A DNA stretch of 33,739 nt, from IMG/VR virus record IMGVR_UViG_3300025770_000057, positions 1 through 33,739 of that record. The stretch is one strand, 5' to 3'. The position numbers and the translations under genes are program-made. Below the pieces are notes generated by a model. It saw nothing but the letters and a program-made list of their open reading frames with translations. It was not told the DNA's origin and did no database searches. Positions 1-16,950 of the stretch are shown piece by piece. Origin of the DNA: a virus. Positions within the stretch are counted from its first letter, which is position 1. The number at the start of each line of letters is the position of its first letter.

Positions 1-495
1 GTAGTGACTTGTGCTGTTAGAAGTGTCTGTAAAATCATACCTTACATTAATATCGAAGTCTGTTTGAGTGCCTCTAGATATAGACAGATTATCAGATCCA
101 GATTGGTAGCTACCACAGTTAATACTGCCACAACCTGTAGAACTATATGTCCTAATTTGTGTTGTTGCTTCACCATCTGCTCCAGTTATTGTTACTGTTG
201 AGGTAACTGTAGAATTATAATTGTTCCAATGCCAATATCTAAAAGAATGGCTTGATGTAAAACCATCTTGTAATTGTGCCTCAGTTAAATTTGCATCGTC
301 TTTTAAACTTACATCATCAGACTTAATATATGTATTATTAACAGCAGCAACTGTACTGTTGCCGTGTCTGCCAGTAGCAGTACCAGACCAACCTGTAGAA
401 AAATCTTGACTAATTAAATTATTTGTTGTGGTTTCTTCTGCTGAAGTTGTGTGGGTTAACATCATCAACAAACTTATTAATACGATAAACCGCAT
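1..495 (-). CDS. Secreted protein, second copy (3' end cut by window edge)
   Basis: This open frame starts with ATG at 495 and runs without a stop to base 1, so only the first 165 residues are visible. It begins with a signal peptide (about residues 1-19, hydrophobic core VLISLLMML). A Ser/Thr/Asn-rich, probably beta-structured domain follows, with a close cysteine pair in the segment GCGSINCG. It is a paralogue of the N-terminus of the secreted gene at 1608-3242: about 20 substitutions over roughly 145 mature residues, with two residues missing at the signal-peptide end. The start lies inside the 37-aa ORF at 419-532, in another frame, and the ribosome site GGAGCAGG falls within that ORF. 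Function is unknown; export to the periplasm or cell surface is inferred from the signal peptide. Whether this copy also has a Glu/Met-rich tail cannot be seen here. Confidence 0.8.
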   Translation of the reverse strand, partial: MRFIVLISLLMMLTHTTSAEETTTNNLISQDFSTGWSGTATGRHGNSTVAAVNNTYIKSDDVSLKDDANLTEAQLQDGFTSSHSFRYWHWNNYNSTVTSTVTITGADGEATTQIRTYSSTGCGSINCGSYQSGSDNLSISRGTQTDFDINVRYDFTDTSNSTSHY

Positions 496-532
496 AACCT
501 GCTCCTATTATCATTATCATTAACCAAATCAT
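419..532 (-). CDS. 37-aa membrane peptide overlapping the secreted protein out of frame (copy 2)
   Basis: This short ORF starts at ATG 532, which overlaps the TGA of the upstream 69-aa gene (ATGA), and stops with TAA at 419. The first 16 residues form one hydrophobic span and the C-terminus is basic and Asn-rich. Its last 77 nt overlap, in a different frame, the 5' end of the secreted protein gene at 1-495. It aligns without gaps over residues 1-33 to the ORF at 3178-3279. Shared positions are MIW 1-3, I8, G10, YA 13-14, Y16, NKF 19-21, D23, VNP 25-27 and NF 29-30. Conservation in two copies, the ATGA junction and the preserved membrane span in the non-overlapping half argue that it is expressed. 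A small holin, spanin-like peptide or translational coupler are possibilities; function is unknown. Confidence 0.68.
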   Translation of the reverse strand: MIWLMIMIIGAGYAVYRINKFVDDVNPHNFSRRNHNK

Positions 533-738
533 TTTAAAATAAGTTTAAGAATTGATTTCTCACCTAAATAAATTTCGGTCTCTGCCATAGACTTTATGCA
601 CTGATATTGTATGTGTTTTTTAGAATCACGCATTGCAATTCTTTTACCTTTTAAACAATCTGACATAGATTCTTGTATTCTGTGTTCCTTGATCTCTCCG
701 TTGATTATCATTAATAGGGCTACCACTAGCTCTGTCAT
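529..738 (-). CDS. Small conserved-type hypothetical protein (69 aa)
   Basis: The product begins with a hydrophobic, possibly membrane-inserted stretch (TELVVALLMII). A more polar part follows with cysteines in SDCLKGKR and QYQCIKS. The start overlaps the stop of the upstream 56-aa gene (ATGA at 735-738), and the stop overlaps the start of the 37-aa membrane peptide at 532, so the gene sits in a tight translational chain. An uncleaved N-terminal anchor with a short cysteine-containing domain outside the cytoplasm would fit, perhaps with one disulfide. It sits with other small membrane proteins in the left-end cluster, but I do not recognise a named family and assign no function. Confidence 0.7.
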   Translation of the reverse strand: MTELVVALLMIINGEIKEHRIQESMSDCLKGKRIAMRDSKKHIQYQCIKSMAETEIYLGEKSILKLILK

Positions 739-1267: not shown

Positions 1268-1621
1268 TTAATTTGATAGTGGATTTTTCGTAGATACCTT
1301 TATCTCTTCTATTTGAACTTTTAATAATTCGATTTCTTTTTTATTTATTTGACTAATAGTATGACCATGCTCAGTATCATGTGTATGTTCTACTACGTCA
1401 TGAGTATGTGATGTGTCAACATTCTCTAGTTTATTAACTTTTTCTTCTAATACTGCAAGCTTACTTTCAATTGCTGATGTATCAACAACAGACTCTTCTT
1501 TAGCTTCTATTGCATCTAATTTAGTCACAATTTCGCCATATTTAACAAAACCTCCGCCTATTGCAACTATCGCTGCAATCAAAGCTGCTATTCCTGCAAG
1601 TTGATCTTTAAGTTTGCCCAT
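1268..1621 (-). CDS. Membrane-anchored coiled-coil protein with His-rich segment (117 aa)
   Basis: An N-terminal hydrophobic segment (about residues 9-27, GIAALIAAIVAIGGGFV) is followed by an acidic coiled coil (KLDAIEAKEES to VLEEKVNKLEN). A histidine cluster comes next around residues 72-88 (SHTHDVVEHTHDTEHGHT), then a second helical part (KKEIELLKVQIEEIK). The His-Thr-His-Asp pattern could bind Zn or another divalent metal, as comparable HxH motifs do in phage fibre tips and metal transporters; this is inference. The start overlaps the 3' end of the 544-aa secreted gene by 14 nt. Like the next gene it is a one-span anchor with an external coiled coil, so the two may act as a pair, for example in lysis. 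Confidence 0.72.
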   Translation of the reverse strand: MGKLKDQLAGIAALIAAIVAIGGGFVKYGEIVTKLDAIEAKEESVVDTSAIESKLAVLEEKVNKLENVDTSHTHDVVEHTHDTEHGHTISQINKKEIELLKVQIEEIKVSTKNPLSN

Positions 1622-3242
1622 TTTTTAACATCTCCAATTCATACAAAAGCCGTTGCTTCTTAAGATTAAGTTCTCCAAGTTTTCTTGCTTTGATCTCCAT
1701 CTTATCATTTTGGATATAAGTTGCAAGACTCTTATCTGCATAAATTAACCTACTATCAAATATAGGTAATTGCTCTAAATATATGTTTTTTGGCTTATAA
1801 AACTGTGTATTTGCGTATGCATTTAATGATGCTTGTTCACTTGTCATTGCATCCATTTTTATAATATTTTTAATAGCTAAATTTTTAGAAATATCTTTAA
1901 TATCTTTGTCAACTTTGTCCATTATTCTGGCAAGATTTTTGACAATAGCTTTTTTCTGTTGTATCTTTTTTTGTTGGGCAAGCTTCTTAGTCTGAACAGC
2001 GGACTTTCTAGGAGTCTCGCTATCAGATTTCTCTTCTTTAACTTCTTCTTTTTCTTCATTAGTTGCTTCTACCATTTTAGTAGGCTCTTCTTCAACAGCT
2101 TCTTCTTTAGCCATCTCTGTGTTTTCTTCTTCTATCATTTCTTCTTCAGCCATTTCAGTGTTTTCTTCTTCAGCCATTTCTTCTTGGAATGTTTCAGTCA
2201 TCGCAGGTTTCTCTTCCATCATCTCTTCTTCTTGAAAAGTTTCAGCCATTGCAGGTTTCTCTTCCATCATCTCTTCTTCTTGAAAAGTTTCTCCGTTCTC
2301 GGTTGATTCCATGAATATGGGTTCATCTTCTGTGACGAATGATTCCTCTTCCTGAGAAACCATCGGTAAGAATGTTGCAACGATTTCGTTTGATTCTTCA
2401 TAAATTTCCTCTATCATTTCCTCGTTTTCAAAGGTAAGCATTGGGCCATCTTCAAACGCCATACCTTCATCTTCCATAGAAAAGTCTTGCTCTTCCATAA
2501 AGAAATCCTCTATAAATTCTTCTGCAAATGTAAATGTCTCCATTTCCATAGGCATCTCCATTTCAAACTGTGGCTCCTCGCTAAAAGTAAAAGTCTCTTC
2601 TTCAAAAGTAAATTCCTCCATATCTTCAAAGATTTCTTCTTGTAAATCTTCAAAAATAGTATTTATTTCATCTTGAATAGACTGATCTATAGGTTCTGAT
2701 TCATAAGCGACTGTAAGAGAAGGCTCTTTTAAGTCTACAGAATAGTGACTTGTGCTATTTGAAGTGTCTGTAAAATTATATCTAACATCTATATCATAAT
2801 CAGTTTGAGTATTTCGAGATACAGAAAGAGTGTCAGCGCCAGATTGATAGCTACCACAGTTAATACTACCACAACCAGTAGAGCTATATGTCCGAATTTG
2901 TGTTGTTGCTTCACCATCTGCTCCTGTTATTGTGACTGTTGAGGTGACTGTGGAATCATAGTTATTCCAATGCCAATATTTAAATGAGTGATTAGTAGTA
3001 AAGCCATCTTGTAGTTGAGGTTCTGTTAAATTTGCGTCGTCTTTTAAACTTATATCGTCAGATTGTATATATGTATTATTAACTGCAGCTACAACACCAT
3101 TACCATGTCTTTGAGTCGCAGTACCAGACCATTTGGAAGAAAAATCTTGGCTAAGTAAATTATTTGTTGTTGTTTCTTCACTTTTTATGGAAGTTGTAAG
3201 GATTAACATAATCAGCAAACTTATTAACGCTGTATATCGCAT
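1608..3242 (-). CDS. Secreted protein with Glu/Met-rich repeats (544 aa)
   Basis: A signal peptide (residues 1-21, core ALISLLIMLIL) leads into a Ser/Thr/Asn-rich domain of about 155 residues with a cysteine pair in GCGSINCG. This part is duplicated at 1-495. From about residue 185 to 410 the protein is extremely acidic and methionine-rich, built on degenerate EEE-x-M units; two near-identical 16-residue units are EEEMMEEKPAMAETFQ-like. A basic, helical C-terminal domain follows (QTKKLAQQKKIQQKK, then KARKLGELNLKKQRL). The ribosome site is AGGAGGA. The 5' end overlaps the 33-aa membrane peptide ORF. Charge separation (acidic middle, basic end) suggests an extended or self-associating exported protein. 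Function is unknown; envelope disruption, receptor masking or metal binding are all speculative. Confidence 0.82.
   Translation of the reverse strand: MRYTALISLLIMLILTTSIKSEETTTNNLLSQDFSSKWSGTATQRHGNGVVAAVNNTYIQSDDISLKDDANLTEPQLQDGFTTNHSFKYWHWNNYDSTVTSTVTITGADGEATTQIRTYSSTGCGSINCGSYQSGADTLSVSRNTQTDYDIDVRYNFTDTSNSTSHYSVDLKEPSLTVAYESEPIDQSIQDEINTIFEDLQEEIFEDMEEFTFEEETFTFSEEPQFEMEMPMEMETFTFAEEFIEDFFMEEQDFSMEDEGMAFEDGPMLTFENEEMIEEIYEESNEIVATFLPMVSQEEESFVTEDEPIFMESTENGETFQEEEMMEEKPAMAETFQEEEMMEEKPAMTETFQEEMAEEENTEMAEEEMIEEENTEMAKEEAVEEEPTKMVEATNEEKEEVKEEKSDSETPRKSAVQTKKLAQQKKIQQKKAIVKNLARIMDKVDKDIKDISKNLAIKNIIKMDAMTSEQASLNAYANTQFYKPKNIYLEQLPIFDSRLIYADKSLATYIQNDKMEIKARKLGELNLKKQRLLYELEMLKNGQT
2184..2279. 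repeat. Two 48-bp tandem repeats in the Glu/Met-rich region
   Basis: Two adjacent 48-bp units (2184-2231 and 2232-2279) differ at only a few bases, and a partial third unit continues from 2280. Each encodes 16 residues of the acidic region of the secreted protein (EEEMMEEKPAM core). The length is a multiple of three, so copy-number change keeps the frame. Confidence 0.85.
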
Positions 3243-3279
3243 AACATCCTCCTACTATTATTCCTATTATCCAGATCAT
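3178..3279 (-). CDS. 33-aa membrane peptide overlapping the secreted protein out of frame (copy 1)
   Basis: ATG at 3279 overlaps the TGA of the upstream 241-aa gene (ATGA), and the stop is TGA at 3178. Residues 1-16 are hydrophobic (MIWIIGIIVGGCYAIY). The tail is polar, with NKF, VNP and NF, and ends in HKK. The last 65 nt overlap the 5' end of the 544-aa secreted gene in another frame, and the AGGAGGA ribosome site for that gene lies inside this ORF. It matches the ORF at 419-532 position for position over 33 residues. Two conserved copies with the same overlap make chance unlikely. It should insert in the cytoplasmic membrane with its basic tail inside or its tail outside; orientation cannot be decided here. 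Candidate roles: small holin, spanin-type partner, or a coupler that sets expression of the secreted protein. Confidence 0.7.
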   Translation of the reverse strand: MIWIIGIIVGGCYAIYSVNKFADYVNPYNFHKK

Positions 3280-4001
3280 CTAGGATCTTTCCATTTTATT
3301 TTCTTTTTAGCTTTTTCCATATCTTTATCTAAAGCGTCTAATTCTTTTGTCATTTCGGCTTCTTCTTTAAATCTTTTCTTTTCAGCTAATGCTGCTTCTT
3401 TAGCTATTTTCTTTTCTTTTTTCTCTCTAGCCTTCATACGTTTAACATAGATATCGTAATCAGGTCTTTCATGATCATATTTAGACCACAATGATTTTGC
3501 TTCTTTACCAATTTTACCATCTATTGGGCAAGGAGTACCAGCTTGAATCATTGATTCAAACACACGCTCATCTTGGCAGAGAATTGCAACTGCTGCAACT
3601 TTCATACCGAAGTCGTTCAAAATTCTTGCTAACTTTAATCGTTCACAATTTTCATCAATCACATGCTTTCCTCCAGAAAGTCCAAGCCCAAATGTTTGTA
3701 CACCCATTGAAACTCCAACAGCGCAAACGTCTTGTGTCATAGAATTATAAGAAGGTGCTGCAGCCGAAGGTGGTGCAGATCTTATATCTGAGTTTGTGGT
3801 ATTGTTAGTTGTAGATGTAGATTCGGAACCTGATTCATAAGTAGTTGTAGCAGTTGACTCATATCCACCATCGATACTTGTGTTTGAACCTGAGGTATTC
3901 GTTTGTGTAGTGTCTGCTTTAGCTGGTCTTGCACAAAGAGCTAATGTCACTAGCATTATGATTAAAAATCCTGTGACATAATAATTCATAAATCTATCCA
4001 T
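3276..4001 (-). CDS. Exported four-cysteine protein with charged C-terminal helix (241 aa)
   Basis: A signal peptide (about residues 1-29, hydrophobic core VTGFLIIMLVTLAL, cleavage-like ARPAKA-D) precedes a Ser/Thr/Asn-rich low-complexity linker to about residue 85. A compact domain with four cysteines follows at about residues 92-160 (QDVCAVG, ENCERLK, AILCQDE, GTPCPIDG), probably forming two disulfides in the periplasm. From about 180 the protein is a Lys/Glu-rich helix. Domains of this kind occur in hypothetical proteins of marine phages, but I know no function. It overlaps the 56-aa Cys-rich gene upstream by 8 nt and the 33-aa peptide downstream by 4 nt. Its place in the membrane/secreted cluster suggests an envelope-directed late or host-takeover role. 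Confidence 0.75.
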   Translation of the reverse strand: MDRFMNYYVTGFLIIMLVTLALCARPAKADTTQTNTSGSNTSIDGGYESTATTTYESGSESTSTTNNTTNSDIRSAPPSAAAPSYNSMTQDVCAVGVSMGVQTFGLGLSGGKHVIDENCERLKLARILNDFGMKVAAVAILCQDERVFESMIQAGTPCPIDGKIGKEAKSLWSKYDHERPDYDIYVKRMKAREKKEKKIAKEAALAEKKRFKEEAEMTKELDALDKDMEKAKKKIKWKDPR

Positions 4002-4374: not shown

Positions 4375-6240
4375 TTAATCGTAAATATCCCCCCAATTTT
4401 CACCTGATTCATAATCAACTTTATTAGGGACATGTAAACTAACAGCATTTTGCATAATATCAATGATTTTATTTGCATGTTCTTTGGACTCTATTGATAT
4501 ATCTAATTCATCATGTATCTGTATATGAGGTATAATTTTTTCTTCATATAAATCTAACATTGCTTTTTTTGTCATGTCTGCTGCACTACCTTGAATCAAT
4601 TTGTTTAAAGCTTTGTAAGTGTACGCTCTTCTAATATTGTTTTCTCCAAATTTAGAACTAGCCTCATCCCATGTCATTGGACTTGTAAGTCTTCCAGGTC
4701 TAAATGCAGCTTCTTCCCACGTATCAAATCTACATCTTCGGCCAAGTAAGGTTGTGATATATCCATTTCTTTGTGAATCTCTTGAAGTATTATTCATTAA
4801 GTCTTTAACAAAAGGTACACGACTATGATATTTTTCAAATAATTTTTCAGCTTCTTCTTTAGTATTCAAACCTAGCTCTGCCTGAAGTTTAGCTTTACCC
4901 ATTCCATAAAACAATCCTAAGTTAATTGTTTTAGCTTGAATTCTTTCTATACCTGCCATGTCTGCTACAGTTTGGTGGAAGTCTACATCGTTGTTCTTAA
5001 ATCTTTCTACTATATTTTTAACTTCATCATCTTCTCTAAGTTTCGGGCTAGCTGCTGCATAGTGAACTACTAGTCTTGGCTCTTGTTGTGAATAGTCAAA
5101 GCATCCCCAGATATGATTTCTCTCTGGTAAAAATAATGATCTAATCATTGGTCCTAAATCTTTATTTCTTGCTGGGACCTGCTGGAGATTTGGATTCGAG
5201 TATGAAAATCTTCCGGTTACTGTTCCTCCTTTTTCACCTCTTACTGGATTTATATCTGCATGTATTCTACCTTTATATTGATACTTAATAATTGTATCAA
5301 TAAATGTTGTATGGGCCTTGTTTATTTCTCTAGCTTTTGCTATACATTGAACCAATGGGTGTTTATGCACCTGTAAAAAATTTTTAGTAAAGGAAGGTGC
5401 TTTTGTTTTTGCGGTTCGTTCAAAAGGTAAGTTTAATTTTTCAAAGATTTTACCAATCGATCTTGCTGCCCATATTTGAACATCTTCTCCTGTTTCTTTT
5501 TTTATTTTTAGCAATAACTGCTTTTCTTGTTCAGATAATTTATTTTTTAATAAGTGAGCGCGTTCAACGTCTACTCGGACGCCCTTAACTTTCATATCGA
5601 TTAAACATGGAAACAGTCTAGTTTCTAAATCAAATACTTCAGTTAAATTTTCTTTTCTAATGTCTAATGACAAGTGTTTAAATAGTTTTAAAGTTAGTTC
5701 AGCATCTTTTTCTGCATAGTTTCCAACATACATAGCTGGAAGTTTATACATTTCAGCTTTAGGATCAGCTCCTGCTTTTTCAGCTGCAGTAGTTAAAAGA
5801 CCTTCATCTTTAACTTCTCCTAAGAGATCATAACAAAGACTATTTAAAGAATAAGAAAATCTATTCTCATTTACTAAAGCTGCCATAACCATTGTATCAA
5901 TAATATGTCCATTTACATTGATGTTATATGATCTTAGCCAACACATATCGTACATAGCGTTGTGAAATAATTTTGTTGATGGAAGATTACAAATTTCTTG
6001 AAGCCAATCTAAAACTTTTTGTTTAGGTAAATTTCCTTCTCTGTGTGCAATAGGAAAGTATCCGGACCATCCTTCAACAGCTACGGCTATCCCTATTATC
6101 TCACCTTCACCTACTAAAGATCCAGAACCCCTTGATTTTAAATTAGGGTCCCTTGTCTCTAAGTCGATTGCTATATATTTATGTTCTTTTAAATCTGGAA
6201 AATTTTCGGGACAAACCCATTCTGTTGCTGCACTAAACAT
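4375..6240 (-). CDS. polA: DNA polymerase family A with 3'-5' exonuclease
   Basis: This is the replicative phage DNA polymerase. The N-terminal 3'-5' proofreading domain has all its acidic residues: D26 and E28 (IDLET), D98 (HNAMYD) and Y175/D179 (YAEKD). The polymerase domain has motif A at D382 (DYSQQEP) and motif B around 433-443 (R-x3-K-x3-L-x3-Y-G). Motif C is H576-D577-E578. No 5'-3' exonuclease domain is present; 621 aa is normal for a phage enzyme of this class. In motif B the residue equivalent to E. coli F762 is Leu441, a substitution associated in published work with slower, more faithful synthesis and proposed to mark less virulent or temperate lifestyles. It follows the zinc-ribbon gene with an 8-nt overlap and ends the replication operon. 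Confidence 0.97.
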   Translation of the reverse strand: MFSAATEWVCPENFPDLKEHKYIAIDLETRDPNLKSRGSGSLVGEGEIIGIAVAVEGWSGYFPIAHREGNLPKQKVLDWLQEICNLPSTKLFHNAMYDMCWLRSYNINVNGHIIDTMVMAALVNENRFSYSLNSLCYDLLGEVKDEGLLTTAAEKAGADPKAEMYKLPAMYVGNYAEKDAELTLKLFKHLSLDIRKENLTEVFDLETRLFPCLIDMKVKGVRVDVERAHLLKNKLSEQEKQLLLKIKKETGEDVQIWAARSIGKIFEKLNLPFERTAKTKAPSFTKNFLQVHKHPLVQCIAKAREINKAHTTFIDTIIKYQYKGRIHADINPVRGEKGGTVTGRFSYSNPNLQQVPARNKDLGPMIRSLFLPERNHIWGCFDYSQQEPRLVVHYAAASPKLREDDEVKNIVERFKNNDVDFHQTVADMAGIERIQAKTINLGLFYGMGKAKLQAELGLNTKEEAEKLFEKYHSRVPFVKDLMNNTSRDSQRNGYITTLLGRRCRFDTWEEAAFRPGRLTSPMTWDEASSKFGENNIRRAYTYKALNKLIQGSAADMTKKAMLDLYEEKIIPHIQIHDELDISIESKEHANKIIDIMQNAVSLHVPNKVDYESGENWGDIYD

Positions 6241-6418
6241 TTTTTTTCTCCTTATAGTCGTTATATTCTTTTATTAATTTTTCTGAAGGGTGCCATACAT
6301 CAACAGCACAATGACACTCAGGACATGATAAGTTACTCACTATATCATAATCCTCATTATCCTCCGTATCGTGATCTCCACCCCATATTAACTCTGTATC
6401 ACAGTGCCAGCAGTTCAT
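6233..6418 (-). CDS. Small zinc-ribbon protein (61 aa)
   Basis: Two CxxC knuckles, C3-WH-C6 near the start and C32-PE-C35 (SCPECH), separated by an acidic loop, define a probable zinc ribbon. The rest is a short charged helix (EKLIKEYNDYKEKK). The gene overlaps the SET-domain gene stop by four bases (ATGA) and the DNA polymerase start by 8 nt, so it is translationally coupled to the polymerase. Small zinc ribbons next to replication genes may bind DNA or proteins of the replication machinery; that role is inferred only from context. Confidence 0.75.
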   Translation of the reverse strand: MNCWHCDTELIWGGDHDTEDNEDYDIVSNLSCPECHCAVDVWHPSEKLIKEYNDYKEKKNV

Positions 6419-6807
6419 TTAGTTCTCTCCTTTGTTTGTCTTACTGATTCTTGGTAAGATTCCTCTAATTCTTTTTCCTCTTTTTTAGATTCTTCTAAAA
6501 AATCTTTTTCTATAGTGTAGAAAGTATATTTTAATGTCAATTCTTCTCCATTCTTAATATTTCTTAATGTTAATAAATTCCATTTGTCCGTGACAGAACC
6601 TTCGGCCCTCATTTCAACTTTGACACAATTAGCATTTTCATCACAATTAATAAAACCACCTAATGGCATTCTGAAAATTTCACCATCAACTTTTATATGG
6701 GTGGTTCCTAAGTTTGTTCCTTGAGCAATGCCCGCTGTTGCAAAAAGCCCTAAACCATTGATTAAAGAGGGTTTTATAGTAAGGCGCGGAGGTAATGGAT
6801 TATACAT
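6415..6807 (-). CDS. SET-domain protein, putative protein-lysine methyltransferase
   Basis: I chose ATG at 6807, which overlaps the upstream stop by 8 nt, rather than the TTG at 6825. The first 100 residues carry SET features in order. There is a GxG turn at 18-20 (INGLGLFA). The core FIN at 52-54 and NC at 60-61 correspond to the N-H-S-C-x-P-N S-adenosylmethionine site. The C-terminal GEELTLKY at 87-94 carries the tyrosine expected in the active site. A charged Glu/Lys helix follows from about 105. SET enzymes methylate lysines on proteins; a target could be host or phage replication or nucleoid proteins. It lies within the replication operon between DUF3310 and the zinc ribbon. The histidine of NHS is replaced, so activity is likely but not certain. 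Confidence 0.82.
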   Translation of the reverse strand: MYNPLPPRLTIKPSLINGLGLFATAGIAQGTNLGTTHIKVDGEIFRMPLGGFINCDENANCVKVEMRAEGSVTDKWNLLTLRNIKNGEELTLKYTFYTIEKDFLEESKKEEKELEESYQESVRQTKERTK

Positions 6808-7015
6808 CTGGGTAGTCTCTTTCAAGTATCATTTCTAAAAAATGTATTGCTTTTAAAATATCTTCCTTCTTTCCTTTTAGTCTGTGGCGACATATATATT
6901 TTATAGCGCATCCTTCCGGAAAAAGCAATTCATTCTCTACAACAAATTTACTTGGTTGAATTTTAAATTTTTGGTAGTGTGATCCTCCGTGTTGTTTGTC
7001 CCATACGTTGCTCAT
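6800..7015 (-). CDS. DUF3310 family protein (71 aa)
   Basis: The sequence matches the DUF3310 pattern: HY at 13-14, IQPSKF at 19-24, then LLFPEGCAIKYICRH at about 30-44, ending with KKEDILKAIHFLEMIL. The family is common in phages and resembles part of the nucleotide kinase gp1.7 of T7-like phages, so a role in nucleotide metabolism is possible. At 71 residues it is near the family's usual size. It starts on the overlap with the 28-aa membrane peptide stop and its end overlaps the SET gene by 8 nt. It is a cytoplasmic helical protein within the replication operon. Confidence 0.88.
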   Translation of the reverse strand: MSNVWDKQHGGSHYQKFKIQPSKFVVENELLFPEGCAIKYICRHRLKGKKEDILKAIHFLEMILERDYPDV

Positions 7016-7098: not shown

Positions 7099-8618
7099 TA
7101 TATTATTGGGTATCCTATATTGTAAAAGTTAGTTTGTGTACTTTGCATAATGTATAAATTTTGTTTTGCTCTAGTTACTCCAACAAAAAATAATCTATGA
7201 ATTTTATCTGGATCTTTATCTGCTTCTCTTGCTAAAAAATCATTTTCATCTTCTGAACCAAAGTCAATATATAAAATTACATTTTCACATTCTCTTCCTT
7301 TAGCTCCGTGAATTGTTGATAGCTCTATCTTTGAATCTGTGGTAAGATTATCGCCGCTTTTTAATAAAAGTTTAATGTAATTTTTTTGTTCATCTGACAT
7401 ATGAAGATGTTCCCAGCTGCCCGCCACTAGAAGCCCGTGATCTTTCTGTAGTTCCTCTAATGTCACAGTAAATACTTTGTCCAATAATTTTCCTTTTCCA
7501 AAGCCATGTTTTACTTCCTTTTTTGTTAAGAACTTTTCAATTACATGCTGTGCTTCTTCTCCTGAAACACTTGCACCATCATTTAACCTGGTCCAGATTC
7601 TATATGCTCTAAGTAAATCTGCAGGTAGTAATTCATTTTGTCCACCTCTGTATCTTAAATTTAAATCATTTAAGAATTGTGCGGCTTCTCTTAACTGTGC
7701 ATTAGTTTGAGCAAGTATCATCCAATTATCTTTTTTAAAATCAAAATCAGTTAGTAAACAATTTTCTTTATAAGTTCCTTCCTCGCCCCTCGCTTCCCAG
7801 GGCTTGTCTAATCTTTCATTTATATGTTTTAAAATTTCTAAAGCTTTAGCGTGTATCTTTTTAGGTACACGATGTGATTTTATTTGATTATCAAAAGTAC
7901 CTTTTAAATTTATAAAGATACTAGGATCTGCTCCTTGAAATCCATAAATAGTTTGATCATCATCTCCTGCAATATAAGATCTCTTACATTGCTCTTCGAT
8001 ATGAAAAAACATATCCCATTGCAGTGGACTTAAGTCTTGTGCTTCGTCAAGGAAGACGGCATCGAGAGCAAGACGCTTATCTTCCTTGACAAACTGGGTA
8101 ATCATATCTGAGAACTCTACCATTCCGGTTTGTTCTTTATATGATTTTAAATCTTCGTCAATTTGTTCTGTTAACCATAAGTCAACAGAATGATGTAAAT
8201 CTAATTGTAAAGCTGCTTCTATTAAACTAATTTTTTTAGAACGTGAGTAAGTTATAATTCTCATGTGATGATTTTGATGAATAGTATTTCCAGATATATC
8301 TTTTTTAGTTTCAAAGTTCATTCCTCTGCAAATTTGCGATTGACTTGTAAATTGTTTCCACTTTCTGTCTTTTAATAATTGTGTGGTAGTATCAATATTA
8401 CATTCTCTAGTTCCAAGATGATGCAGTGTAGATATATAAAGAAGAGGATATTTAATTCTGTCATACGCTTCATTTGCAGCAGCATTACTGAATGTCACAT
8501 AGACTATTTTTTTAGGATTAGTCTGTAAACCATTGATTTCATTAGATAAATAGTGATTGACTAATCTATAAGTTTTACCTGTTCCTGGAGGACCAGGAAT
8601 TATAGTTCTTACTGCCAT
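7098..8618 (-). CDS. UvrD/Rep-like superfamily 1 DNA helicase
   Basis: The SF1A helicase motifs are present in order. Walker A is GPPGTGKT at residues 9-16 and Walker B is DEAQD at 191-195. Motif III is GDDDQTIYGFQG shortly after. Motif IV-type SHRVPKKI, motif V STIHGAKGRE and motif VI FVGVTRAKQNLYI complete the set in the C-terminal third. At 506 aa it is shorter than UvrD (about 720), as in compact phage helicases of the Dda type. It should translocate on single-stranded DNA and unwind the duplex ahead of the polymerase. Its start overlaps the primase stop by 10 nt, so primase and helicase are coupled. No DnaB-type helicase appears in the window, so this enzyme may be the fork helicase. Confidence 0.93.
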   Translation of the reverse strand: MAVRTIIPGPPGTGKTYRLVNHYLSNEINGLQTNPKKIVYVTFSNAAANEAYDRIKYPLLYISTLHHLGTRECNIDTTTQLLKDRKWKQFTSQSQICRGMNFETKKDISGNTIHQNHHMRIITYSRSKKISLIEAALQLDLHHSVDLWLTEQIDEDLKSYKEQTGMVEFSDMITQFVKEDKRLALDAVFLDEAQDLSPLQWDMFFHIEEQCKRSYIAGDDDQTIYGFQGADPSIFINLKGTFDNQIKSHRVPKKIHAKALEILKHINERLDKPWEARGEEGTYKENCLLTDFDFKKDNWMILAQTNAQLREAAQFLNDLNLRYRGGQNELLPADLLRAYRIWTRLNDGASVSGEEAQHVIEKFLTKKEVKHGFGKGKLLDKVFTVTLEELQKDHGLLVAGSWEHLHMSDEQKNYIKLLLKSGDNLTTDSKIELSTIHGAKGRECENVILYIDFGSEDENDFLAREADKDPDKIHRLFFVGVTRAKQNLYIMQSTQTNFYNIGYPII

Positions 8619-10150
8619 GGTTCTTGTTCTACTTTCAATTTTCTTGGGTTTGGTTTTTCTAATTTAATTGTTTCCATTATTAATGTTCTAATTGATTTAC
8701 TTTCTACCTTTATATTTTTTTCCTCTACTCCAAACAAAGATTCTAAAAGTCTTAATGTTTTTTGATAAGGATAGGTTTTTTCAGACCAAGATTTAGTTTT
8801 TAATAAATATCTCCAGAAAGATTTAAACTGAAAAAAAGTACTTCCTTCTTTATTGGTATATGCGATACCTCTTAGCACATCGGTTAATTCTTTTCCTGGA
8901 GCTTTGTTAATATAATCTGCTAGTATTTCTGTTAATCGAACTTCTAGTTTAGAAGATTCTGGTGCAGGAAGCGTTTCTAGGTTAGTAAATAATTTTATTA
9001 ATAGTTTTCTCCATGCATGTTTAGGAACTGGCATCATTGGCATTCCTATTTGATTCATACAAGCTAATGAAAATTTTTCTGGATCATGTAATGTTGCGTC
9101 ATCTACGTCTACACCTTCTCCACCTATATCTACAAAATAAATAGGTGGGTCAGAATCATATTTTCTTATTTGTGTTATTTCTGGTGTGGGTCCATCATCC
9201 CCTACTCCAAATTCTCTCGTTGAACATTTTTTAGCATCACAAAAACTATGTATAGGTTCGTCTTTACATTTGTATTTGTAATCTTTACCGTCTAAAGATT
9301 CAATTAAAGTATTTATTTCTCCTACATCTAAAGGTGGCTCCATAAATTTTTTATTATATGTAAACATATGACTTTGCCATTCATCTTTTTCAGGATATCT
9401 TTTTTTTAAATAGACTCCTACATTGTACATACAATTATTTCTCTGACCATTTGGAACACCATCACTTAACAAAGTCACTAAACATGGCGGTATACCTTTA
9501 AAAAAATCATCACCTTCTTTATTATTTGCAATTTTTAAATTTTTTAATTCATCTAAAGACATAGCTTTTTCTTTGTATGCTTCAAAAAAGTCTTCAATTT
9601 TTAAAGCTTCTCCATTTTCATCATATGCAAATCGCATAGTTCTTTCGTCGCCATGATAAGGTAAGTTTAAGAAACTTCCGGTATCTCCTCTATCTACTCT
9701 TATGTAATCTTGTTTTGGAAATATTTCTGCTCTTGCAAATCCTAATGCTGAAGCTATTAGTTTAAGTTTAGCTCTCATTATAATTGCTGGAACAAAATCA
9801 TTTGTAAATAAGCACGCATGACCTCCTCCAGATTTAGATCTGAAAAGAATTATTGGAATATTTTTTGATTTTAATTTAGTTAAGAAACTTTTGTGATCGA
9901 AAGGATATGTGTCTATATCGATGCAGCCCCATTTACATTTATTTTCTTTATTGATTGGAACAATTCCTAATCCAGGATCAGTTCCTTTTAAATGGTCTTG
10001 CCATATTTTAATTATAGGTACTTGACCTACTGTATATGATTTAGTTTTATGCTTTCCTCTTTCGTCAAACTGATCTGTTTTGATAGTTTGTCCATAAGCA
10101 GAATCTAATCCTTCAAATATACTTTTAAAAATTTTTACTTTATCTGTCAT
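8609..10150 (-). CDS. Archaeo-eukaryotic-type primase (AEP, TOTE/PriCT-like)
   Basis: The N-terminal half resembles the AEP primase domain found in TOTE-type systems. The catalytic D78-x-D80 lies in CIDIDTYP, SGGGHA is at 107-112, then EIFPKQDYIRVDRG and FLNLPYH. A helical primase C-terminal region follows (about 210-290: PPCLVTLLSDGVPNGQRNN, KRYPEKDEWQ, EINTLIESL). Next is a cysteine cluster C-x8-C-x4-C around KCKDEPIHSFCDAKKC that probably binds Zn. The last 170 residues contain a helical domain of unknown role. It would make RNA or DNA primers for PolA and may also act with the SF1 helicase. It is not a DnaG/TOPRIM primase. The ATG at 10150 follows a hairpin-containing 55-bp gap. Confidence 0.85.
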   Translation of the reverse strand: MTDKVKIFKSIFEGLDSAYGQTIKTDQFDERGKHKTKSYTVGQVPIIKIWQDHLKGTDPGLGIVPINKENKCKWGCIDIDTYPFDHKSFLTKLKSKNIPIILFRSKSGGGHACLFTNDFVPAIIMRAKLKLIASALGFARAEIFPKQDYIRVDRGDTGSFLNLPYHGDERTMRFAYDENGEALKIEDFFEAYKEKAMSLDELKNLKIANNKEGDDFFKGIPPCLVTLLSDGVPNGQRNNCMYNVGVYLKKRYPEKDEWQSHMFTYNKKFMEPPLDVGEINTLIESLDGKDYKYKCKDEPIHSFCDAKKCSTREFGVGDDGPTPEITQIRKYDSDPPIYFVDIGGEGVDVDDATLHDPEKFSLACMNQIGMPMMPVPKHAWRKLLIKLFTNLETLPAPESSKLEVRLTEILADYINKAPGKELTDVLRGIAYTNKEGSTFFQFKSFWRYLLKTKSWSEKTYPYQKTLRLLESLFGVEEKNIKVESKSIRTLIMETIKLEKPNPRKLKVEQEPWQ

Positions 10151-13907: not shown

Positions 13908-13959
13908 AAAATGTAGGACATACGCGCGAGGCGTTGTGATTTTCGAAACCTACTATTTT
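13908..13959. terminator. Candidate bidirectional terminator between convergent genes
   Basis: AAAATGTAGG (13908-13917) can pair with CCTAC-T-ATTTT (13949-13959) with one bulged T. A smaller hairpin, ACGC/GCGT (13922-13934), lies in the loop. The A- and T-rich flanks suit both directions. The position, between the SNF2 stop and the hsp20 stop, is where a two-way terminator is expected, but the long loop makes the call weak. Confidence 0.35.
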
Positions 13960-14360
13960 ACAGAAATTTTCTTTGGCTTCTTGTTTTCAGGTGGATCGTA
14001 TTTCAATTCCACTTTCAACATTCCATCCTCAAGCCTAGCTCCACTGCATTCAACATACTCTGACAACTGAAGTTGTTTTTTAAATGCACGTTTAGCTATA
14101 CCTCTATGAACAAAGTCTTCTTTATCTTCAGAATTTTTTCCTTCGATAGATAGGACTCCGTCTTGCACCTGGACATCAATGTCTGACTTCTTATAGCCAG
14201 CCACTGCCATCTCTAGTGTGTATTTATCTTCACCTGCTTTCTTTATATTATAATGCGGAAAGCCTGCGTTTATATTTGGTAGTCGATGAAATCTGTGAAA
14301 GAAATTCTCGAAACCAATTGCGTTGTTTAGGAAATTGTTTAAATTTATTAGATCAGTCAT
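13953..14360 (-). CDS. Small heat shock protein Hsp20 (alpha-crystallin domain)
   Basis: An ATP-independent holdase chaperone of 135 aa. The N-terminal arm has aromatic-rich FENFFHRFH and FPHYNIKK at about 34-41. The alpha-crystallin domain runs from about 43 to 122 (YTLEMAVAGYKKSDIDVQVQ, GVLSIEGK, then AFKKQLQLSEYVE, LEDGMLKVELK). The tail PENKKPKKISV carries the I-x-V anchor for oligomers. It is closest to the IbpA-type class. Phage Hsp20 genes are known in cyanophages and other marine phages, where they probably protect virion or replication proteins during assembly. It has a strong ribosome site (AAGGAGGT) and its own candidate promoter at 14419-14446. Confidence 0.95.
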   Translation of the reverse strand: MTDLINLNNFLNNAIGFENFFHRFHRLPNINAGFPHYNIKKAGEDKYTLEMAVAGYKKSDIDVQVQDGVLSIEGKNSEDKEDFVHRGIAKRAFKKQLQLSEYVECSGARLEDGMLKVELKYDPPENKKPKKISVK

Positions 14361-14446: not shown

Positions 14447-14641
14447 GGCTAAATGATTAATTAAACTATATATTAAAAAAGCCATGGCAGTGATTAATGC
14501 TCCTGAACATGTTAATAATATCTTCTCGAGTCTCTTTACTCGTTCTTCTATTTGATGTATTTTTTTATGTGTTAATTTCTGCATAATTCTGCAAAGTTTT
14601 TCGTGTGATTCTATTCTTTGTAATGCGTTACCTTTTGGCAT
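14441..14641 (-). CDS. XhlA/holin-like coiled-coil membrane protein (66 aa)
   Basis: A basic, heptad-like helix (LCRIMQKLTHKKIHQIEERV, KRLEKIL) occupies residues 16-43, and one transmembrane segment follows (GALITAMAFLIYSLI, about 47-61). This helix-then-anchor layout is that of XhlA-type proteins, which act with a holin in lysis by some Bacillus phages, and of several small phage holins. It starts on the TAATG overlap with the 769-aa virion protein and is the last gene of the virion operon, where lysis genes are often found. No endolysin lies beside it, so the lysis role stays tentative. Confidence 0.6.
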   Translation of the reverse strand: MPKGNALQRIESHEKLCRIMQKLTHKKIHQIEERVKRLEKILLTCSGALITAMAFLIYSLINHLAL

Positions 14642-16950
14642 TAAATTAACCTATTTTCTACTTGTCTTAATACTTCTTTATTAAACCCATTTAATTCTAA
14701 CCCAGCATTGTGTAAGAAACCTTTAGCTATACCATCGCCATTGTAGTCTGCAAATTCAATGTCTTTAATAAATATTCTTCTGCCTGTTGTATCTAATGAA
14801 TATACAACGGGTATCTTGTCGATCTTAACAGATATTGGACTGTCTTGAACCATTATAAATTTGCCATCTTCTTTCACATAGTGACTTCCTGCAACTGTAA
14901 CACCTTTGTAATCATGTATCTCATCAGTTGCTTTAAATTGGAATACACCTGTAACTTCTCCACCTTTAGTATTGTCTCCCAATTGAATTTCTTTAATTCT
15001 TTTCTCAGATCCATCGGCCATTTGTACACGCGTGTTTGGATCAAAACAAAATCCACCGTAATCTGATTCACCGCTGCTTGAAGATCTACCACCGGAACGA
15101 TCACCTTCTCCGCCACCGCCTTGGTTTCGTCTAGCTGCTTCTCTTCTAGCTGCCGCTAGTCTGTCAATCTCTGCTTGTCTTCTAATTTCATTTTGTCGAG
15201 TAACTTCTGCTCTTTGGTTAGCTGCTCTTCGTTCAGACTCTCGTCTCTCGGCTGCTATTTGTTCTTGCATTACTCTTTGAGCTGCTGCTTGTTCAATTGC
15301 TGCTGCTTCAGCATCAAAAGCCGATGTTGTCGGCGCATCTTGTGAAATGTCTATATCATAATCATCACCCATTGTTTGCCAATCTGTAATATAATCTGGT
15401 GGATAAGTATCCCATCTATTTGTTGCTGGTTTTATTATTCCTGTTGGTGTAGTTGGTTCAACCATATCGTAATGTTCATCGTAACCGATTAAGTCATCTT
15501 CTATTACTGGTGAAGTATCTAGCATCTCGCTGCCCGAATCATCGTCAGCTGATTGTATGCCAGCGTCTACTGCTTCTTGTAAATTAATTGCATCTTGTTC
15601 TTCTTTAGTAACTAAATCACTTGTATCATCTAAAAAACCAGCCTCTCCTGATCCTAATGTTATACCAGCTGTTTTTGTAATTGGATCATATTCTGTTATA
15701 GTATCACCGCCTGCAGCTCTTGCTACTGTATTTAAATTTTCTTTTAATGCTTCTTCTCTTTGACCTAGTTTAGTAGGCTCTCCCGTATCAGGATTTAATT
15801 TTGGAGTGCCGTCTGCATTATAGAAACTACCATTATACTTTTCATTTTTAGTTTTTTCTAATGTAGATAGTCTATCAACTATAGATTCTTGTATTGTACC
15901 ACCACCTACTGATATGTCACCTATTCTTATACCTGTTTCACCTGGACTATATCTAGCCATTACATTTTCTGGTGTGTCGTAATCTAATCCTACTTGTTGA
16001 ATTCTACCAATATCATCAAGAGTAACTCCTTCTTCTTCAAATTGATCTGAAACTAATTTTTGTTGCGCTCCACTAGCTGATTCTGCTCCGCCTATAAGAT
16101 CTATTGCTGTACCTAATAAAGGTATTCCTAAAGCTGCTTTGCCTGCTAAATTTAAAATAGCTGTTCCAGCCATATTACCTATATCTATTCCTTTATCTTT
16201 AAGATCTGTAAAGAAATTACCTACATCTTGTCCAGTTTGAACAAATTTATCTCTTAAAGCTTCCCACTGAGCTGGATCTTTTTGTTGTTCAAAAGTTTGA
16301 CCTAGTACTGCATTTTGATCAGCGATACTTCTTGGTGTTTGATAAGGTTGTCCTGTTGTAGGATTTATGCCATAAGGAGAACCTTGTGTTTCTTGTTCTT
16401 CAGGAACAATTCTTGGATCTCCAGTTGGATTACCTAAATCCACTTGATCTAAATCTATATCTTCTAAAGAAGCACCACCTGCTGCTCCTGAGACTAAAAA
16501 AGGATCACTTGAAACAGGTATCTGATTAAATGCATCCATTTCTTCTTGTGTAACTGGCATCTCGCCTGGAGCTACAACAGGATCGCCTGGTGCTCCTTGC
16601 ACTCCAATACCTTGATCTAATAAATTTTGTTCGAAAGGAGTATTTTTTGGACTGTCAACGTCAAAACCAGGTAATGTTGCTTCACCTCCTCCGCCACCGC
16701 TACCGCCAGGTGTTGTTGCTGGTGGTGTTACAAAATCATCTTGCGCTGCATCGAATCCACCGCCTAAGTAAAGATTATATAAGTCTTGGTATCTATTGTA
16801 ATCTGTAGTCGCAGATTTAATTCCTTCAAATTCTGGTACAGAGGAAAGAGCATAAGGACTTCCTTGATATACGTCAGTCCCTTGAATCCCCGCCTCTAGC
16901 TCCGCAGCTATTGGATCTTTTTTATATAGAGATGTATATTTTTCAGCCAT
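14641..16950 (-). CDS. Virion-module protein with C-terminal Hint (intein-like) domain (769 aa)
   Basis: The N-terminal 540 residues are acidic, Gly/Pro-rich and mostly low complexity, with a short hydrophobic stretch (AGTAILNLAGKAALGIPLLG, about 260-280). An Ala/Arg/Glu helix (about 550-612) and a Gly/Ser linker follow. From C635 (GFCFDPNTRVQM) to N748 (GFLHN) is a 114-residue Hint fold with the block-B histidine H690 (AGSH) and terminal His-Asn. The residue after N748 is alanine, so trans-esterification with a +1 Cys/Ser/Thr cannot occur. Cleavage at C635 or N748, as in bacterial intein-like (BIL) domains, is more likely than splicing. It is the last large gene of the virion operon and may be an internal or ejected protein that is self-processed. 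Confidence 0.8.
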   Translation of the reverse strand: MAEKYTSLYKKDPIAAELEAGIQGTDVYQGSPYALSSVPEFEGIKSATTDYNRYQDLYNLYLGGGFDAAQDDFVTPPATTPGGSGGGGGEATLPGFDVDSPKNTPFEQNLLDQGIGVQGAPGDPVVAPGEMPVTQEEMDAFNQIPVSSDPFLVSGAAGGASLEDIDLDQVDLGNPTGDPRIVPEEQETQGSPYGINPTTGQPYQTPRSIADQNAVLGQTFEQQKDPAQWEALRDKFVQTGQDVGNFFTDLKDKGIDIGNMAGTAILNLAGKAALGIPLLGTAIDLIGGAESASGAQQKLVSDQFEEEGVTLDDIGRIQQVGLDYDTPENVMARYSPGETGIRIGDISVGGGTIQESIVDRLSTLEKTKNEKYNGSFYNADGTPKLNPDTGEPTKLGQREEALKENLNTVARAAGGDTITEYDPITKTAGITLGSGEAGFLDDTSDLVTKEEQDAINLQEAVDAGIQSADDDSGSEMLDTSPVIEDDLIGYDEHYDMVEPTTPTGIIKPATNRWDTYPPDYITDWQTMGDDYDIDISQDAPTTSAFDAEAAAIEQAAAQRVMQEQIAAERRESERRAANQRAEVTRQNEIRRQAEIDRLAAARREAARRNQGGGGEGDRSGGRSSSSGESDYGGFCFDPNTRVQMADGSEKRIKEIQLGDNTKGGEVTGVFQFKATDEIHDYKGVTVAGSHYVKEDGKFIMVQDSPISVKIDKIPVVYSLDTTGRRIFIKDIEFADYNGDGIAKGFLHNAGLELNGFNKEVLRQVENRLI

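Follow-up and report, generated by a model that had tools for sequence, protein, structure and literature searches.

The window analyzed here is a 33,739-nucleotide stretch of the virus record IMGVR_UViG_3300025770_000057, with genes located mainly on the minus strand. The DNA polymerase A encoded at 4375-6240 is closest to those of HTVC023P-type pelagiphages (60% to 023Pt_psg01, 57% to HTVC027P, and 53% to HTVC023P), which identifies the window, by sequence affinity, as an HTVC023P-type pelagiphage, that is, a podovirus-like phage of SAR11. The hosts of pelagiphages are the commonest bacteria of the ocean. Several other minus-strand genes of the window encode recognizable proteins: a small phage-encoded SET-domain protein close to the DNA polymerase (6415-6825; PF00856 above the cut-off), a primase-like protein with a match to the AEP primase domain found in TOTE conflict systems (8609-10150), a small heat-shock protein of the Hsp20/alpha-crystallin family (13953-14360), and a virion-like protein (14641-16950) with a C-terminal CFDPNTRVQMADGSEKRIKEIQLGD that resembles a Hint domain, for which a Pfam search gave no match.

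Overlapping frames at the locus

Near the left end of the window, two short open reading frames overlap the 5' ends of genes for secreted proteins (B1 and B2). Both belong to a microprotein family of 33-42 aa with a single predicted membrane span. The features of the locus are the following:

3276-4001, minus strand: protein A, secreted or anchored, 241 aa; N-terminal hydrophobic helix, low-complexity stretch, Cys-containing domain, and long C-terminal helix
3178-3279, minus strand: microprotein copy 1, 33 aa, MIWIIGIIVGGCYAIYSVNKFADYVNPYNFHKK, one predicted membrane span; its ATG overlaps the TGA of gene A
3248-3253, minus strand: Shine-Dalgarno sequence of B1, AGGAGG, within the microprotein coding sequence (from the sequence and the Shine-Dalgarno survey)
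3178-3242, minus strand: overlap 1, 65 nt; microprotein tail over the B1 signal peptide, with B in the +1 frame of the microprotein
1608-3242, minus strand: secreted protein B1, 544 aa; signal peptide, beta-jellyroll, acidic disordered region, and C-terminal helices
1268-1621, minus strand: TM and coiled-coil protein, 117 aa; its family is found after B in most contexts
529-738, minus strand: protein of 69 aa (phrog_24646), encoded ahead of copy 2; represents one of the four gene types that end at the microprotein start
419-532, minus strand: microprotein copy 2, 37 aa, MIWLMIMIIGAGYAVYRINKFVDDVNPHNFSRRNHNK; its ATG overlaps the TGA of the 69-aa gene
502-506, minus strand: Shine-Dalgarno sequence of B2, AGGAG, within the microprotein coding sequence (from the sequence and the Shine-Dalgarno survey)
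419-495, minus strand: overlap 2, 77 nt; microprotein tail over the B2 signal peptide
1-495, minus strand: secreted protein B2, cut by the window edge

A preliminary description of this DNA had singled out the two short frames as coding for a conserved membrane microprotein out of frame with the secreted protein that they overlap, a view that the homologs and selection tests reported below strongly support. The two frames are real, align without gaps, and contain one hydrophobic stretch each. The ATGA starts, over the stop codons of A and of the 69-aa frame, and the overlaps of 65 and 77 nt with the secreted-protein genes were likewise borne out. A DNA motif derived from the N-terminal parts of the two copies has two occurrences in the window and none in 100 dinucleotide shuffles. 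The glycine stretch conserved in the membrane span is partly imposed by the Shine-Dalgarno sequence of B, which itself lies inside the microprotein gene.

The structure model of A is of low confidence, and no solved structure matched A in sequence; rows from annotated phage records were excluded from the structure modeling. The N-terminal domain of B is a beta-jellyroll resembling carbohydrate-binding modules, and the type of domain differs between relatives. When B of the window (1608-3242) is compared with its relatives, the mature domains form a mosaic, with several N-terminal domain types behind one signal-peptide cassette.

The translation signals of the two genes differ. No recognizable Shine-Dalgarno sequence precedes the microprotein in 47 of 78 cases, whereas all 78 have one of at least 4 nt before B, inside the microprotein gene; the distance from the microprotein start to the B start, in the +1 frame, is 37 nt across most of the pelagi-podovirus clade. 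This pattern fits reinitiation for the microprotein and independent initiation for B. The microprotein would be translated via termination-reinitiation at the junction with the upstream gene, B would start independently from the strong Shine-Dalgarno sequence, and a single DNA stretch would encode both the conserved tail of the former and the signal peptide of the latter. Most of the microproteins have an uncharged N-terminus and a net-positive tail; by the positive-inside rule, we lean toward a topology in which the span lies in the inner membrane with the tail in the cytoplasm (N-out, C-in).

Distribution and gene neighborhood

A scan for relatives of B yielded 75 viral contigs, one for the microprotein gave matches on 211 contigs (80 were retrieved), and a scan for protein A gave at least 570. 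From these, 93 distinct microprotein contexts were collected, in which the microprotein starts at or just past the end of the upstream gene and, in every case, a possible ATG of B is present in the +1 frame within the overlap. The isolates HTVC023P and HTVC202P carry the microprotein. In a bacterial genome collection, the single match was on a phage-like contig of a SAR86 MAG. Searches against Pfam, PHROG, and NCBIfam gave no match beyond weak ones to families without assigned function; among these, phrog_19190, a 74-position profile of unknown function matched weakly by 8 of 22 microproteins (best E 2e-4), is longer than the microprotein and only a possible homolog. No description of the gene was found in literature searches.

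The T4-like phage Mosig and its relatives have a diverged microprotein, MDYDTINVILWSCVLAYASIKFYNFMHGLNPYDFSNKSK, at the same junction. Profile comparison with the rest of the family gave a probability of 96% (E 2e-9) across the tail half, where the motif NPY(N/D)F is common to both. Because this half is the region in which the signal peptides overlap, shared DNA ancestry is expected there, and the weight of the comparison lies in the survival of the microprotein frame in the Mosig clade. In some Mosig-like phages and in HTVC115P, the 3' end of A apparently uses the third frame and encodes a hydrophobic C-terminus that lies over or beside the microprotein region (at the A/B junction, about 2670-2770 in locus L249 and about 4390-4450 in L241); up to three frames may be used at this junction in such phages.

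The gene ending at the microprotein start is A in 43 contexts, a phrog_24646-like gene in 22, a gene for a 40-aa basic protein in 20, and one for a 60-aa membrane protein in 5. B is linked to the microprotein in all 93 contexts, and A is within reach in 88, the TM/coiled-coil cluster in 69, a 3TM holin-like protein in 15, and the M15 endolysin family in 14, so that lysis genes are within reach in a minority of contexts only. The M15 endolysin is present in 13 of the 49 contexts that extend at least 1.5 kb beyond B. A contig that is 96.5% identical to the left end of the window over 1.26 kb has the gene order B, TM/coiled-coil protein, M15 endolysin; in Mosig, the gene preceding A scores above the Pfam threshold for a 3TM holin (PF11351), and HTVC033P encodes an amidase in the corresponding region. 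Six microprotein contexts include, about 2.1 kb downstream of the microprotein, a gene for a 51-aa lipoprotein (MKKLFFIIALFALSSC...) with a clear lipobox and weak similarity to Cor superinfection-exclusion proteins, which is a possible o-spanin candidate. Nothing was found that ties A or B to the curli/T8SS link of the pelagiphage papers (PMC9599517, PMC9004378).

The microprotein is absent from 31 distinct B genes; in these, the ATGA junction serves as the start of B itself, whose signal peptide is of an unrelated type (MKWLIPFLFLFTAAQADS and others like it). The existence of such genes indicates that the microprotein is dispensable for B, and the unrelated signal peptides imply that the microprotein and the signal peptide overlapping it behave as one exchangeable 5' cassette. 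An obligate pairing of the microprotein with B is not supported, given the many B genes that lack it.

The preliminary description had further taken the two copies in the window to be duplicated as a unit, which now appears doubtful. In the tree of 5' ends, copy 1 is nearest to the clade with the 65-nt overlap (distance 0.10) and copy 2 to the clade with the 77-nt overlap (0.06), whereas the two are 0.40 apart, each being closer to copies in other viruses. Since the 5' ends come from different subclades, a recent tandem duplication in the window is disfavored, and separate acquisition or recombination seems the better account of the two copies. Their mature B domains are 83% identical.

Selection on the overlapping frame

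A signal-peptide pattern blind to the microprotein collected 75 distinct B genes with the overlapping type of signal peptide, and the microprotein frame is open in every one; three of these sequences have no ATG or GTG at the exact expected start position. The preliminary description had named frequent breakage of this frame beside an intact secreted frame as evidence against it, and no broken frame was found among the 75. An open frame by itself is weak evidence because, per sequence, it survives resampling of the B codons in about 39% of cases. The resampling is more telling for the residues: heterozygosity of the microprotein is 0.25, compared with 0.60 after the synonymous codons of B are resampled (minimum 0.57 of 200).

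The suppression of synonymous change and the dN/dS in both frames, proposed earlier as checks, point in the same direction. At identical B residues, the same codon is used in 76-85% of cases in the overlap, compared with 57-73% past it (pairs 50-95% identical; the pairwise comparisons are between related sequences and are not phylogenetically independent). The 31 control B genes without the microprotein show no such suppression, with 40-74% in the corresponding region and 48-74% past it. Omega in the overlap is 0.335 for the microprotein and 0.683 for B, and codon models give 0.397 for the unshared N-terminus of the microprotein, values that come from 11-18 codons, carry no confidence intervals, and are non-independent in overlapping frames. 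Chance openness of the frame is ruled out by the residue conservation of the microprotein together with the synonymous suppression.

Outside the overlap, codons 4-9 of the microprotein are free of stops in all 68 sequences, and none of them encodes a charged residue, an amide, or His there (two have Ser). In neutral simulations on the tree, stops appeared in a mean of 13 sequences and charged, amide, or His residues in 39, and in none of 1000 simulations were both absent. The three codon positions of the unshared N-terminus are equally variable, and therefore it is mainly the hydrophobic character that is conserved there.

Amino-acid identity of B is lower in the overlap than past it in all bins except the most distant (50-65%). 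In most bins, the 5' end accumulates amino-acid changes faster than mature B, which rules out recombination or a 'young' 5' end. Two of the hallmarks of same-strand overlapping genes under dual selection, a frame kept open in homologs and synonymous suppression limited to the overlap, are found here. Very probably, then, this is a genuine overlapping gene whose product, a membrane microprotein of 33-42 aa with a single span, is under purifying selection and is probably translated by termination-reinitiation. The joint claim, that the gene is genuine and that its product acts in the membrane, is likely.

Possible functions and comparison with known systems

The safest statement on function is that the product would be a membrane microprotein of a lysis or envelope neighborhood. 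Its locus adjoins genes for holin-like, TM/coiled-coil, and endolysin proteins, so a role in lysis or in the envelope is a fair guess, and a lysis or envelope accessory is plausible. More specifically, purely from its location, we tentatively propose that the microprotein may be an accessory of a module comprising A, B, the TM/coiled-coil protein, holin, and endolysin. There it would, for example, tune the action of the holin or, alternatively, hold the envelope proteins A and B at the membrane. Comparably tentative is the broader possibility that marine phages widely share a hitherto undescribed cassette for lysis or the envelope, with the microprotein built into the sequence encoding the B signal peptide and both traveling as a fixed 5' unit; if this holds, the envelope-binding domains of B would be swappable while the unit itself stays fixed.

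Small membrane proteins of phages often serve superinfection exclusion or other functions in the host envelope, and the microprotein could be one of these, located merely beside lysis genes. The patchy presence and cassette-like exchange of the microprotein would fit such an accessory trait. Nevertheless, we regard this main alternative as rather unlikely, given the tight linkage of the microprotein to A (88 of 93 contexts) and B (93 of 93) and the lack of similarity to known exclusion families in family searches. It is less probable still that translation of the frame serves only as a leader or coupling device with an inert peptide, in which ribosomes open the mRNA and tune the initiation of B. 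The ATGA coupling, the weak or missing Shine-Dalgarno sequence of the microprotein, and the location of the B start and its Shine-Dalgarno sequence inside the microprotein gene, 37 nt past its start in most of the pelagi-podovirus clade, are all compatible with a leader; however, a leader has no need of a conserved membrane span, the residues themselves are conserved (omega 0.34-0.40; resampling test), including the NPY(N/D)F tail motif in the Mosig clade, and the B genes without the microprotein start directly on the same junction.

That the conservation is a by-product of the B signal peptide, of RNA structure, or of the recent recombinational spread of a shared 5' module is very improbable. 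The mosaic of mature B domains behind a shared 5' module does imply that the module moves between genes, but recent spread would lower amino-acid change too, and the residues of the signal peptide differ more than those of mature B in most bins; moreover, synonymous sites are frozen in the overlap, an effect absent from the control class. The faintest prospect is a component of a new overlapping spanin-like pair, an idea encouraged by the overlapping frames, the lysis neighbors, and the N-terminal hydrophobic helix and long C-terminal helix of A (in the low-confidence model). Against it, a lipobox-like motif is found in only 3 of 93 microproteins, 33-42 aa are too short to bridge the periplasm, and the signal peptide of B is plain.

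An unannotated gene under clear selection provides a concrete handle on the pelagiphage A-B-endolysin neighborhood. The gene also illustrates that overlapping microproteins escape standard annotation, as the records of both carrier isolates list the flanking genes only. A signal peptide that also encodes the tail of another protein is a clean case for the study of dual coding.

Holins and pinholins oligomerize and permeabilize the inner membrane at a set time. Like holins, pinholins, and antiholins, the microprotein is a small, predicted inner-membrane protein in a lysis neighborhood, but it has no similarity to known holin families in Pfam, PHROG, or NCBIfam, and several of the same loci encode a separate 3TM holin-like protein.

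Among spanins, the o-spanin is an outer-membrane lipoprotein with a lipobox, and the i-spanin combines an N-terminal TMD with a periplasmic domain that reaches the o-spanin (PMC6139136). Judged against these defining features, the microprotein is ruled out as a spanin by lipobox and size: neither the two microproteins of the window nor the signal peptides of B1 and B2 contain a lipobox, and all family members are 33-42 aa with a tail of about 20 aa, so that the periplasmic domain of an i-spanin is not accommodated. The preliminary description had likened the arrangement to Rz/Rz1, and of this likeness the use of overlapping frames stands; the missing lipobox, a length insufficient for the periplasm, and the 5' position of the overlap in the secreted gene do not fit. 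As in lambda Rz/Rz1 and the overlapped two-component spanins (PMC6139136), two envelope-targeted proteins are encoded in overlapping frames with holin and endolysin genes nearby. Unlike in Rz/Rz1, the microprotein has no lipobox or periplasm-spanning helix, it overlaps a large secreted protein at the signal peptide, and B also occurs without its partner. The microprotein and the overlapped spanins (PMC6139136) are alike in one further respect, namely, that annotation often misses the overlapping gene.
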